A stretch of 64,000 nt of DNA, from contig NC_084790.1 in the NCBI RefSeq assembly GCF_028858725.1, positions 3,478,001 through 3,542,000 of the forward strand, given 5' to 3'. Made by a program: the position numbers and the translations under genes. Shown piece after piece: positions 12,924 to 39,961 of the stretch. Source of the DNA: Colius striatus. Its lineage: Eukaryota; Chordata; Aves; Coliiformes; Coliidae. The notes below the pieces were generated by a model. It ran no database searches. It was not told the DNA's origin and saw only the letters and a program-made list of their open reading frames with translations. The stretch's first letter is position 1, and every line of letters begins with the position of its first letter.

Positions 12924-15900
12924 ATGAGCTGTGCCATCAGGCAGGTCGTTACTACCTGCTCCCAAGGCAGAAGCAGTGCTGGCAGCTCTGCTGGTGGTAG
13001 TGGAAGAAAGGTCTCCTCCTCTTCCTCAGGAAGACACACGGCCTGTGACTTAGGTGGTGTGGTTGGCACTTTTTCTGGTGGCAGTTTGAGTGAGGGATTA
13101 CTTGGGAAGCAGCTGAGCGCTGGCAGTGCTACCAGTGGGAGCTTTGCAGCTACCCAGAGGGCTTGTTCTGCCCTTGGATTCAGCGGGGGAGGTATCTGCA
13201 CTCGAGGTATTGGTGGTGGCTTCAGCAGGGCTGGCGCCGGTTGCGGTGATGGGATCTTGTTTGCTAACAATGAAAAGGCGACGATGCAGAACCTCAACGA
13301 CCGCTTGGCCTCTTACCTGGACAAGGTACGGCTCCTGGAGGGTGACAATGCTGACCTCGAGTGCAAGATCAGGGAGTGGTATGCCAAGGTAGGGCCCAGC
13401 TGCGAACCACGGGACTACAGCTGTTACCATAAGGAAATCGAAGACCTTCAAAACCAGGTAAATCACTCTTTTTCAAGAAAACTCTAGTATTTCTTCAAGC
13501 TTTGCCTTCACGTGTGGGTAGAGCAATGTCAAATGGTGGAGGCAATAGCTGTGTCTTTGGAGGTGCAGATGAAGCAATAGTTTATATGGAATAGATGGTT
13601 TGAGGGAGGAGGACGCTGCATTTACAAGGAGCTGAAGTTTCAGCACAGCCTGCTCCACCAAGCTGGCAGGTAGGTTCCCCCACTAAATGATTAACAGTCC
13701 CAATATATGGAATCATTATAAAACCAGTGGGTTGCATTACCCTGGGGAGGTGTTTTCTCCACAGCCTCTTGTCGCCAGAGGAAGCTGCGAGCCCCCATCT
13801 CTTTCCTGCAATTTCTCTCCCAGATTCTGTGTGCAGCCATGGAGACTAACAAAATCCTTCTGAACATTGATAACAACAGGATGACTGCTGATGACTTCAG
13901 AGTGAAGTGAGTACAGTCCTGTGCTGGACTGAGGGATTCCCACTGCCTGTAGAACGGCTGGTGAGCAGTGGGGATGGGGAAATCCTAACCCTCTGCTTGT
14001 CATGCTGATACACCCACATGCAGATGTCTGCGAAAGGTGTGGATACCACTGAGTATGTTCATAGCATGGTATGCCCAGAGTGAAAGATTGCTTTCTTGCA
14101 AACTCAACTCGAGGTTTTTGCCATGGTTTGTGGACATGCTGACCTTTCTTTGTTGCCTGTGTCTTAAGGTACGAGGCAGAATGTGGTCTCCGACAAAACG
14201 TGGATGCAGACATTTGCAACCTACGCCCTGTCCTGGATCAGCTGGCCAGCTGCAAGACCGACCTGCAGCTACAGTGTGAGGCTTTGACTGAAGAGATGTG
14301 TTGTCTCAAGACGAACCATGAGGAGGTTAGATTGCCCCTTACTCTTAGAAAATAGAGAAAGAAGGAAAGCACCCCTCAAGTGTCAATATTACTAATACGA
14401 TGCATGTGTTCTCTGTAGGAAATGAGCTGTCTGAGGAAACAGGCAACTGGAGATGTGAGTGTGGAAGTCAATGCCTGTCCTGGCCCAGACCTGAGGAAGA
14501 TCCTGGAGGATCTGAGGTGTCAATATGAAACGCTGATGGAGCGCAACCGCAAAGAGACTGAACAGTGGTATGCCTGCAAGGTACTACATACACACAGAGC
14601 TATGCCCTGCTCTGCCTGTTGGGGGGAAAGTGGGAGATTAAGGACACTCACTGGAAGATGTCTTAATATCAGCAGTTGTGTCAGAGATGTGCTCACTAAC
14701 TAATTCTACTGCCCACTTTCAGTGTTGTTCTGACCCTGGCACAGGGGCCACAGCATGGTGTTACAGGGTCACAAGGGAATACATTTGGATATGCTCAGGT
14801 GCACTGCAAGGCATGTGCAAGCAGTGCAGTGAAGCCCTTGCCACAATGAGGTGCTGTGGGGAGGTGAGGAAAGCGCTGCTCTTTTCTAAATCTGCAGGTG
14901 GAGGAGGTGAATCTGGAGGTTGTCACGAGCAGCCAGGAGATTGAGTCGAGCAACAAACAGGTGACTGAGCTGAGACGTCAGCTGCAGGCTTTGGAAATCA
15001 ACGTGCAAGCCCAGCTCACCATGGTAGGTGATGCCACTGCGATTCCCTTCTCAGGCTCCCCAGCTCTCAGAAAGCTGCATGGCCAGAGCTGTACCTGTGA
15101 CTGGACGGGCTAAGCTTGCAGCATACCCAGGTACCTTTGTGTCATTCCCATTCTCAGAAAGAAAACCTGGAATCCTCTTTGGCGGAAACCGAATGTCGCT
15201 ACAACAAATACCTGTCTGAGCTCCAGAGCCAGATCTCCTGTGTGGAGCAGCGGCTGGCTGAGATACGAGCAGAAATGGAGTGCCAGAACCAGGAATATAA
15301 AACCCTCCTGGATGTCAAATGCCGCTTGGAGCAGGAGATTCAGACCTACCACTGCTTGCTGGAGGGAGGACAGCACGACATCATGTATGTGGAGCACACA
15401 CAGAGCTGGGCACAGTAAATTCTCTATGCTTTGACTTACAGGGGTACAAAACGTCGTGACGCAAACGGTAAAAGCAACACCGTGGTGAGAAACCAGTACC
15501 CACCTGTTACCAGATAGGTCCTATTAGCAAACCACAAAGCATTCGAGTATTTGACACTGATAAATGTCTAGAGTGGATGCCAGAGACCATTCCACTGTCT
15601 TGGGCTAGTGAAGGCATCCAGGAGAGGCTCCCAGAGGTGTCCCAGCAGGTCACAGCATCACAGCTCATCACAGGGAAGTTTTCACTGTGCGCTGGGCAAA
15701 GTCTTTTATGAACACTGTCATTTAACTGACTTTTATTGGCTTTGCCGCAGCTAGACAGGATTAGGGACTGGCAGTTAAATTGACTGGCACAATAAATAAT
15801 CTAAACATTTACAGTTTCACACAACAATTTTAATTAAGTTTTGGGGAAATTTAATTTGCATGCAAAGCAGCTGGCTCTGCCCTGCCTCCCATTGACTGAG

Positions 15901-37700: not shown

Positions 37701-39961
37701 AACTGGAGATGTGAGTGTGGAGGTCAATGCCTGCCCTGGACCAGATCTCAGGCAAATCTTGGAGGATTTGAGATGCCAGTATGAAACACTGATAGCGCGC
37801 AACCGCAAGGAAGTTGAGGATTGGTATGAGTGCAAGGTGAGCAACACATATCTCTGTGAAACAAACCGACATACACATTTTGGGCCACAGGAGCATTTCA
37901 GAAAACAGACGTGGAGACAATAAGCAGTTACTGTGTCACAGTGAAGTCCAAGATTAGCATTCATTATACCTTGTGTTTCATGGGAGACATGGGCCTGTCT
38001 GACCAGTTTGTTATGTCCCATCTGCAACAGCAGCATTTGCCTCCAAGGCCTTGTGGCACGTTGTTGGAACTGAGATATTCCGTGTTTGGATTAAAGAGAC
38101 TTAATAGCCACGAGGTTAATGGGATTTGTAAAACAAGCAAGCAGTTGAAGCTGGCAGCTAACGCCCAGTGTATAGAGAACTTGTCCTGCTCATTCTCCTT
38201 TTTGCTTGCTAATCACTGTATTCTGCTTCTCTAAAAGCAAGTCCAATGCACACTGCTATTCTCTGAAGCCCTTTGCTTTGTGTTGGTGGTTTTCAGATTG
38301 AGGAGGTGAATCGGGAGGTTATTACAAGCGGTCAGGAGGTAGAGACGTGCAACAACCAGGTTACCGAATTGAGACGCCAATTGCAAGCTCTGGAAATCGA
38401 CCTCCAGGCTCAGCTCAGCCAGGTAGGTGGTGAGCTTACTACATACAGTTGTGACATGGTTTACTTTTGGATTTCTTAGCCTACCAACCATCATGATGGT
38501 TCTGAATAACTCATTTCTGCAGTGGAAATAATAACCTCTAGGGTGACACTTAAACGCATGTTGTTTCTTTCTCTGGTTGTCTTGTTTATCAGAGAAATAA
38601 TTTGGAATCCTCTCTGGCTGAGACTGAGTGTCAGTACAACACGCTGCTCGGTGAGCTACAGAACCAGATCACATGCGTAGAGCAGCAATTGGCTGAAATA
38701 AGAGCAGAAATAGAGTGCCAGAACCAGGAATACAAGACCTTATTGGACGTCAAGTGCCGTCTGGAGCAGGAGATTCAGACCTACCGGTGCTTGTTGGAAG
38801 GAGGACAGCAGGACCTTATGTATGTAGATCTCTAAATCCACTAGAGAATAAATGCAAATATCAGGATGTGTGTTACAGACTGAGAACCCAGCATAATCTT
38901 TAGTCCATCTTAATGCTTTCTTTGAGGTGAAAAGTTTGCCTTGTGAGCAGCTTTACTGTGATGAACATTAAAACCTGACCTAAATGCCACTCTTTGGCAT
39001 CTGCAAAACGGAGAAACCACCCTGTCAACTGCTGGTTGCAATGTGCTAACTACTAATATTGTGTCAGTACTCTATAGTGAGATGTGTGAGATGTTATTGT
39101 AACACTGTGCATTGTATTTCCTTGCCAAAGGAGAGCACAGATGCAAAGCAACTCTGGAAATGGAAAAAAACCCATAGTGTAAAATACCCTAAGCCCTAAA
39201 AAAGACATAGTTTGTGACTTTGTGCAAATGCCAGTGTCATGTAAAGTTCTAAAGCTCCCTATTTCTTTCCCCAAATTTACCCCACTAGCCACGGAGGAGG
39301 AATCGGAACTGGCGTAGGAGGAGGAGTCATTAGGACAAGTCACACCTATACTACAACTTCATCTTCCCATTGCCAGCCCCAGGTCCCAGCCTGCAAGACT
39401 GGAGATATACAGGGTAAGAGCCTTGTTTTCACAAAAGGAGCACTTGGGGTTTTTTTTCCCCAGCTTGTTTCTTGGGGCCAGTATAAACACGCTTCCCTGG
39501 GATGTGTTATGGGTGTCTTCTAAGAGAGTTACTGTGCTTAAAGAGAGCTCTAGCTGAATATGAAGCAGCAGAAAGCAGATGAGAGACAAGAACGAGCAGT
39601 AGAACTAAGAGGGGAAAGCTGGGAAAATTGAGGCATAGCAAAAAGACAATGACAGCCAAACAGACATTATCAATAGTCCAGAAGGAACCACAGAATCACA
39701 GAATGTATACATTGGAAAAGGGTGAAGAGCAAATCTCTAGCTTTATAAGTGCACATTCCCATTCCAACACCATTATTTAGGGACTTTATGGGGTTTCCTG
39801 GGTTACCTGCCAGCTGCTCTTGTTTAAGAGTCAGTCCTTGAAATCAGGGCACCACAAAGACCAATTTTTTGGTTATTTGAAGGAGGTTGTCTCTGTTCCA
39901 ATCAAATAATGCTTCCACATTTATTTTTTCTCCAGTGACCTGCAGGAGAATCTGTGATTAA
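34785..39961 (+). CDS. Cysteine-rich KRT9-like type I keratin (gene 4, 8 exons)
   Basis: Exons: 34785-35273, 36140-36222, 37106-37262, 37675-37836, 38297-38422, 38593-38819, 39289-39413, 39936-39961 (TAA). The product is 464 aa, with a head about 32 residues shorter than in gene 3. I count 28 cysteines, the highest in the window. The head has MSCNIKE, GSC, SYCGG and GDCLLSSC. The rod has [37 protein letters not shown] and [11 protein letters not shown]. Termination is [19 protein letters not shown]. Exon 7 is a short Gly/Thr/Ser stretch with [15 protein letters not shown], and exon 8 encodes VTCRRICD. Exon 3 is identical to gene 3 and exon 5 differs at two bases, while exons 2 and 4 differ at about 11% of sites. 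It is a disulfide-prone acidic keratin, probably of a hard cornified tissue. Intron 2 holds an antisense CR1. Confidence 0.93.
36655..36974 (-). repeat. CR1 LINE fragment (antisense) in gene 4 intron 2
   Basis: Starts with CATAGAATCATAGAATCACA and ends at CCAACCTCCTGACACCC, the complement of the ORF2 end of CR1. It makes up about a third of intron 2. I saw no counterpart in intron 2 of gene 3. Confidence 0.94.

Follow-up and report, generated by a model that had tools for sequence, protein, structure and literature searches.

Organization of the type I keratin locus

The window, a gap-free stretch of 64,000 nt (no N) of Colius striatus contig NC_084790.1, carries five type I keratin genes in which a trio, genes 2, 3 and 4, lies between a K14-like gene and a KRT9L-type gene (Table 1). 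Gene models in the window are assembled from splice sites, and all 20 introns of genes 2–4 are GT/AG with open frames. The interval 12924..39961, given for the trio by an earlier sequence-only reading, proves exact, running from the first base of the gene 2 ATG to the last base of the gene 4 stop. In the two flanking genes, exon 7 of gene 1 was picked by eye among several candidates, and the last exon of gene 5 has several candidates with none chosen, its counts leaving that exon out.

Table 1. Keratin genes and associated features of the window
Feature	Position	Strand	Exons	Description
Gene 1, K14-like type I keratin	1371..6089	+	1371-1886, 3647-3729, 4025-4181, 4377-4538, 4619-4744, 4862-5082, 5445-5494, 5992-6089	470 aa, 3 Cys; stop TAG 6087-6089; trio neighbour, non-member
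Gene 2 TATA box TATAAATAG	12823..12831	+		101 bp upstream of ATG
Gene 2, HAS keratin, KRT9LC3-like	12924..16462	+	12924-13457, 13824-13906, 14169-14325, 14419-14580, 14898-15023, 15158-15384, 16375-16462	458 aa, 27 Cys, pI 5.1; Pfam Filament E 1.2e-101
Gene 3 TATA box TATAAATAG	23709..23717	+		102 bp upstream of ATG
Gene 3, HAS keratin, KRT9LC2/HAS2	23811..28598	+	23811-24395, 25247-25329, 25884-26040, 26294-26455, 26878-27003, 27103-27329, 27475-27620, 28573-28598	503 aa, 26 Cys, pI 4.92; Pfam Filament E 4.6e-110
Gene 3 exon 3 plus flanks (upstream 3 bp, downstream 14 bp)	25881..26054	+		Candidate conversion tract, identical to 37103-37276
Gene 3 exon 8	28573..28598	+		Codes VPCRRICD + stop; matches chicken KRT9LC2 peptide
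Gene 4 TATA box TATAAATAG	34683..34691	+		102 bp upstream of ATG
Gene 4, HAS keratin, KRT9LC1/HAS1 by elimination	34785..39961	+	34785-35273, 36140-36222, 37106-37262, 37675-37836, 38297-38422, 38593-38819, 39289-39413, 39936-39961	464 aa, 28 Cys, pI 4.78; Pfam Filament E 5.5e-107
Gene 4 exon 3 with flanks	37103..37276	+		Second copy of the identical tract
Gene 4 exon 8	39936..39961	+		Codes VTCRRICD + stop
Gene 5, KRT9L-type, few cysteines	51977..56082	+	51977-52630, 53202-53284, 53887-54043, 54403-54564, 54879-55004, 55233-55459, 55769-56082	574 aa and 6 Cys without last exon; trio neighbour, non-member

Genes 2–4 are type I keratins by a Pfam Filament match across nearly the full domain length, internal exon lengths of 83/157/162/126, a pI of 4.8–5.1 and a place among type I genes. 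Gene 2 ends at a TAA within exon 7, which shortens its tail, and its product may therefore differ. A CRRIC-type exon 8 was not found for gene 2, the motif occurring on the plus strand of the window only at genes 3 and 4.

The surrounding cluster comprises 15 genes, of which 14 were assembled (the 5 of the window and 9 others), the far-end gene being left out. Exon-1 ends follow the tblastn match ends for all 14; they coincide with the hand-set ends in the window's five genes, leaving those of the other nine unverified, while exon 2 of one gene (m) and exons 5–6 of another (o) were set by hand. Two K14-like genes, gene 1 and one outside the window, stand just upstream of the trio on the same strand, placing the trio on their 3′ side within the type I cluster, and four KRT9L-type genes come after it. 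Gene 5 is sister to another KRT9L-type gene outside the window (support 99.7/100). Additionally, exon 6 is 227 bp long in every HAS and KRT9L-type gene (seven in all) and 221 bp long in the six remaining genes with a script-derived end.

Cysteine content and rod positions

The proteins of genes 1–5 contain 3, 27, 26, 28 and 6 cysteines, respectively; these are the counts proposed earlier except for gene 2, which had been put at about 25. Over 305 rod residues, genes 2, 3 and 4 have 19, 18 and 18 cysteines, compared with 0–3 in each of the 11 other assembled type I rods of the cluster and 1–2 in each of the four KRT9L-type rods among them. Sixteen rod cysteine columns are common to genes 2, 3 and 4. 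Genes 2 and 3 alone likewise have 16 in common (p = 8e-22 under random placement), and common descent is the main source of this sharing for the most part. Only 1/16 shared columns is cysteine among the 11 other bird rods, namely in the two K14-like genes.

Thirteen of the shared columns lie in coils, 11 of them at heptad positions b/c/f and 0 at a/d (p = 0.0026 vs 3/7), in a register obtained from our own simple hydrophobicity fit, which is weak over the early part of coil 2. When private columns are counted as well, 2/18 columns fall at a/d and the avoidance is not significant (p = 0.077).

Comparison of the 14 genes corrects the earlier motif list. LLEGGQ, one of the strings taken earlier to point to KRT9, is confined to genes 2–4; its companion SGQEV is present in genes 3, 4 and 5 and absent from gene 2. 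ELCCLK is exact in genes 3 and 4 only, gene 2 reading EMCCLK. VKCRLEQE is ruled out as a HAS-specific motif by its presence in both gene 1 and the second K14-like gene outside the window. RCQYE is found in genes 2–4 and in 0/11 other genes, as is further listed sequence amounting to 17 protein letters.

Phylogenetic placement and assignment to the HAS keratins

The tree combines the 14 bird rods with five human rods of largely unverified sequence, and a reduced set omits the two longest branches. Parts of the human K10 and K14 were checked against PDB text; for the K9, K18 and K31 rods no solved structure served as reference, the keratins among the matches listed being K10, K14, K1 and K5 only. 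Genes 2–4 form one clade (100/100). In the reduced set they unite with human K9 and the bird's four KRT9L-type genes at 99.9/100, with K9 joining KRT9L at 59/62; in the full tree the HAS–KRT9L node receives 41.1/68, K9 branching off immediately outside. A tree constrained to unite K9 with only the HAS genes survives the test (p = 0.17). The trio is thus monophyletic and nearest to K9 rather than to hair keratins among the mammalian genes, K9's exact place in the clade being weak, and the earlier view of the genes as KRT9 relatives holds. They are not mammalian-type cysteine-poor KRT9 genes, having 18–19 rod cysteines where the four bird KRT9L genes have 1–2 and human K9 has 2; the seven bird genes nevertheless have the 227-bp exon 6 in common.

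The hard acidic sauropsid-specific (HAS) keratins, alias KRT9LC1-3, are reported in birds as three genes beside KRT14, flanked by KRT9L genes (PMC7086170). We conclude with high confidence that genes 2, 3 and 4 are these avian HAS keratins, gene 3 being KRT9LC2 and genes 2 and 4 probably KRT9LC3 and KRT9LC1, respectively: K9-like relatives with putatively cross-linking rod cysteines. The assignment draws on direct observations of gene structure, cysteine number and position, phylogenetic place, synteny and the identity of gene 3. Like the described set (PMC7086170; PMC8742010; PMC12821399), the trio is type I, has more than 20 cysteines per protein (27, 26 and 28), occupies three genes 3′ of K14-like genes, has KRT9L neighbours and has K9 as its nearest mammalian gene; its three rods are the cysteine-rich ones among the 14/15 genes assembled. 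Gene 3 is KRT9LC2, because its C-terminal residues coincide at 15/15 positions with the antibody peptide for chicken KRT9LC2 (PMC8742010). Gene 2 best fits KRT9LC3, judging by one of two chicken primers: the KRT9LC3 forward primer has 3/20 mismatches in gene 2 and 6 at the next best window site, and the other KRT9LC3 primer has its best fit in gene 3, at 3 mismatches against 4 each in genes 2 and 4. Gene 4 would then be KRT9LC1 by elimination. The trio comes from another bird species, and it may differ from the described genes in that gene 2 ends early within exon 7 and that the KRT9LC2- and KRT9LC1-like genes have one and the same exon 3.

Two other identities were weighed. Orthology with mammalian-type type I hair keratins, under which the cysteines would be ancestral and not convergent, could draw on 2/16 shared columns (rod 62 and 115) that are also cysteine in human K31, one of them in the string LTLC-SDLEAQ that genes 3 and 4 carry. 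The K31 group, too, consists of cysteine-rich acidic keratins of hard appendages. Forcing the trio together with K31, the single hair keratin included and of unverified sequence, costs 28.7 log units (AU p = 0.011), however; 14/16 shared columns are non-cysteine in this K31, and 3/5 of its rod cysteines are non-cysteine in genes 2–4. Placement inside the hair-keratin clade, named beforehand as the outcome that would overturn the proposal, was not obtained, and the independent gain of cysteines is supported. Type I hair keratins are moreover reported lost in the birds examined there except kiwi (PMC7086170), and we regard this orthology as extremely improbable. The sequence-only reading had also left room for new relatives of the HAS group. 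A bird-specific lineage of that kind would accommodate the four published chicken primers, which mismatch by 2–4 bases at their best window sites, but gene number, position and cysteine count are those of the published bird set and the C-terminus of gene 3 is that of chicken KRT9LC2 residue for residue, so we consider it very unlikely; of the two options offered, membership in HAS stands and a new relative does not.

Identical third exons and possible gene conversion

Exon 3, which carries the hair-keratin-like cysteine strings, is the same in genes 3 and 4 within a tract of 174/174 identical bp, giving a dS of 0 across 36.7 synonymous sites. In this pair, dS is 0.6–2.6 in four further exons, and the introns hardly align. 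An identical exon amid diverged exons and introns makes exon-wise gene conversion, or an assembly artefact, the likely cause. The same kind of mosaic is seen in two further tandem pairs, the K14-like pair and a KRT9L pair, which suggests that the pattern is common in this bird cluster.

That assembly or polishing copied one paralogue onto the other is a minority reading, one we think rather unlikely; the mosaics in those two tandem pairs of the same assembly are what paralogue over-polishing would give. Against it, the two short introns that gene 1 has in common with its upstream twin match at 97.5% and 98.3%, not identically, and intron 4 matches at 341/342 between two KRT9L-type genes whose differences elsewhere are uneven; near-identical introns and uneven differences are better explained by conversions that happened at different times than by a single round of polishing. 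For the biological reading, in which conversion acts exon by exon among the tandem HAS genes, preserving and perhaps spreading whole cysteine-bearing rod exons, with exons 3 and 5 copied between KRT9LC2 and KRT9LC1, we put the chances at even. Conversion and recombination are described for three mammalian alpha-keratin gene groups (PMC5540548), and the expansion of bird KRT42/KRT75 was once termed possible concerted evolution (PMC4264316). The term "gene conversion" is absent from the main text of PMC4264316 and PMC4202321, and the accessible portion of the open-licence literature yielded no report of it in bird HAS keratins.

Proposed role in hard skin appendages

The products of genes 2–4 are acidic intermediate-filament proteins related to K9-like keratins, and most of their 16 shared rod cysteines face outward from the coiled coil. 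All but a few of these are missing from the KRT9L line, so their gain probably came after the two lineages separated. We infer that each HAS keratin most likely builds filaments together with a type II chain, probably one of the cysteine-rich HBS keratins, and that during cornification the exposed cysteines would form disulfides with adjacent filaments and cysteine-rich matrix proteins, hardening scale, claw, beak, egg tooth and feather.

HBS keratins are type II proteins of another cluster with a parallel cysteine gain in the partner chain type, chicken HBS1 being found in feather barbs and barbules (PMC7086170). They are known here from a single match of the chicken HBS1 tail peptide to the type II cluster of this genome (contig C32; 74% identity, E 0.011). 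In six stretches of that contig one type II exon 6 is recognized by motif, with 0 cysteines, and two loci of the contig contain one type II exon 6 each, with 1 cysteine each; together these cover a minor part of the cluster. A tissue role of genes 2–4 in hard appendages would carry over from the chicken papers: KRT9LC2 is present in hard scutate scale and absent from interscale epidermis (PMC8742010), proteomes of beak, claw, feather and scale are rich in HAS1/HAS2 (PMC7086170), and the egg tooth contains KRT9LC3 (PMC12821399).

Significance

The trio is real but already described, as known HAS keratins. It is a clear example of convergence, in which acidic keratins gained cross-linking cysteines separately in sauropsids and in mammalian hair; this idea was in print by 2020 (PMC7086170), with chicken expression evidence added in 2022 and 2025 (PMC8742010, PMC12821399), and is therefore correct without being new. 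For some HAS and HBS genes the last exons escaped identification in the 2020 paper (PMC7086170), and the window adds a gap-free stretch with the last exons of two HAS genes. It also adds a testable hint that cysteine-bearing exons are shared among gene copies by conversion; if this is true, cross-linking sites would evolve as shared cassettes and not gene by gene.

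HAS identity and gene models of the cysteine-rich trio

The cysteine-rich trio formed by genes 2, 3 and 4 is real, was well described by the sequence-only reading, and is already known. The hard acidic sauropsid-specific (HAS) keratins are, according to PMC7086170, type I keratins that contain over 20 cysteines, lie on the 3' side of KRT14 and number three in birds, with K9 as the closest mammalian gene, KRT9L genes (K9-like with few cysteines) on their flanks, and a cysteine content acquired independently of hair keratins. Genes 2–4 display the HAS sequence features published there. 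The C-terminal 15 residues of gene 3 are those of the chicken KRT9LC2 antibody peptide (PMC8742010), which finds 10 of 15 residues in gene 4 and no more than 5, at another place in the protein, in gene 2. The KRT9LC2 forward primer fits gene 3 best (2 mismatches; gene 2, 3 mismatches), and the best site of the reverse primer is 20 bp past the gene 3 stop, with 4 mismatches and in a tie with an unrelated site at 678. For KRT9LC3, the forward primer of PMC12821399 lands on gene 2 with 3 mismatches (second-best site, 6), while the other primer from that source has 3 mismatches on gene 3 and 4 each on genes 2 and 4. Such mismatches point to a bird other than chicken.

Exons 2–5 were located through the fixed lengths that they have in type I keratins (83, 157, 162 and 126 bp) and their AG/GT borders, and exons 1 and 6–8 were placed manually, guided by sequence and splice sites. 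Once joined, the models for genes 2, 3 and 4 have open frames, carry GT/AG at all 20 introns, encode 458, 503 and 464 aa, and each match Pfam Filament across almost the whole domain length. Each gene also has a TATAAATAG box 101–102 bp upstream of its ATG. The interval first proposed, 12924..39961, proved exact, running from the first base of gene 2 to the last base of gene 4. In gene 2 (window 16375–16493), the glycine-bearing frame of exon 7 stays open as far as a TAA about 30 bp upstream of a splice-donor-like site that genes 3 and 4 share. Its tail is shorter than theirs, its rod is unaffected, and no CRRIC-type last exon was found downstream within the window; the early stop could reflect either a genuine shortening or an error in a base. 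The window also holds a microsatellite, as well as open stretches and repeats resembling fragments of CR1 retroposons.

Coordinates of the features (window positions unless prefixed by G000:C40, the contig with the window and the type I cluster, or G000:C32, another contig with the type II cluster)
Feature	Coordinates	Strand	Remark
Upstream gene	G000:C40:3468126-3472078		second K14-like gene, upstream of the window
Gene 1	1371..6089	+	K14-like
Gene 2	12924..16462	+	KRT9LC3-like
Gene 2 TAA	16460-16462	+	exon 7
Gene 3	23811..28598	+	KRT9LC2/HAS2
Microsatellite	28038-28231		(GAAG)n-type, gene 3 intron preceding last exon
Gene 4	34785..39961	+	KRT9LC1/HAS1 (by elimination)
Gene 5	51977..56082	+	KRT9L-type, last exon not included
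Retroposon-like	8553-9116, 30809-31099, 45124-45834, 46138-46741, 50343-51399, 58440-58914
KRT9L-type pair	G000:C40:3557019-3569561		tandem
Last type I-like gene	G000:C40:3641.9-3642.9 kb		two weak exon matches
HBS1 tail peptide match	G000:C32:1247612-1247668		type II cluster

Cysteine content and phylogenetic placement

Our count upholds the cysteine excess claimed for genes 2–4, with 27, 26 and 28 residues against 3 in gene 1 and 6 in gene 5, distributed over head, rod and tail as 6/19/2, 5/18/3 and 6/18/4. Across 190 kb of the same contig, where genes were called by exon matches, 15 type I-like genes lie on a single strand: two K14-like genes, the three HAS genes, gene 5 with three further K9-like genes, and six others. 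Rods were assembled for 14, leaving out the last gene. The 11 rods other than genes 2–4 contain 0–3 cysteines each, and at the 16 cysteine columns common to the HAS rods they have cysteine at only one (VKC, rod 290), in the two K14-like genes. In provisional human reference sequences, K9 and K10 carry cysteine at rod 277, and K31 at rod 62 and 115, both shared HAS columns. The cluster sits at 3.5 Mb in a contig of 89 Mb. Since a microchromosome carries the type I cluster in chicken, Colius striatus may have undergone a fusion, or the contig may include a scaffold join.

In a tree of the 14 bird rods alone, genes 2–4 form a clade (100/100) adjoining the four KRT9L-type genes (89.5/88). When five provisional human rods are added, HAS, KRT9L and K9 group at 95.6/89, rising to 99.9/100 without the two longest branches, K18 and one further assembled type I gene (gene m). 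Forcing genes 2–4 with the provisional K31 is 28.7 log units worse (AU p = 0.011). A grouping of these genes with K9 alone survives the test (p = 0.17), so K9 may be sister to HAS, to KRT9L or to both. Exon 6 lengths agree with this grouping: the seven HAS and KRT9L-type genes have 227 bp, and the six others with a script-derived end have 221 bp, one more, hand-set gene being excluded.

Exon mosaics among neighbouring paralogues

In a mosaic that the sequence-only reading does not include, genes 3 and 4 are identical across 174 bp at exon 3, 14 bp of intron included. Their dS values over exons 1–6 are 2.57 (last 190 bp of exon 1), 0.63, 0, 0.66, 0.08 and 1.48, and their introns align at only 46–52% identity. 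The longest identical run in joined exons 2–6, 170 bp, was matched in none of 10,000 shuffles, and a run of 72 identical sites among those variable in genes 2–5 in none of 20,000. A conversion-like mosaic recurs in the K14-like pair, where exons 3–6 are nearly or fully identical (dS 0) and exon 2 has a dS of 1.09, and a similar one in the tandem KRT9L-type pair, with 341/342 identity in intron 4 and only 59% in intron 2. Gene conversion, documented for mammalian alpha-keratins (PMC5540548), is the likely source of these mosaics; the main rival is over-polishing of paralogues in assembly.

Cysteine positions and proposed cross-linking

Under a heptad register obtained by simple hydrophobic fit, with weak support over the initial part of coil 2, the outer-face positions b, c and f hold 11 of the 13 shared coil cysteine columns and a/d none (p = 0.0026, b/c/f against 3 in 7). 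Including private columns, 13 of 18 fall at b/c/f (p = 0.011) and two at a/d (p = 0.077, not significant). Such a pattern would be expected for linking neighbouring filaments or matrix, not for core building. In mammalian trichocyte keratin, cysteines on different strands are reported to reach axial register after oxidation (PMC8072682), and by analogy HAS keratins may behave likewise.

Chicken KRT9LC2 is reported in hard scutate scale and as absent from soft interscale epidermis in PMC8742010; PMC7086170 gives HAS1 and HAS2 as abundant proteins in the proteomes of beak, claw, feather and scale; and PMC12821399 reports KRT9LC3 from the egg tooth, with its mRNA present in the wing when feathers form. 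The tail peptide of chicken HBS1, one of the cysteine-rich type II keratins, was matched in the type II cluster (19 residues, 74% identity, E 0.011), and pairing of HAS with HBS keratins is plausible. We infer that HAS keratins cross-link filaments through disulfide bonds.
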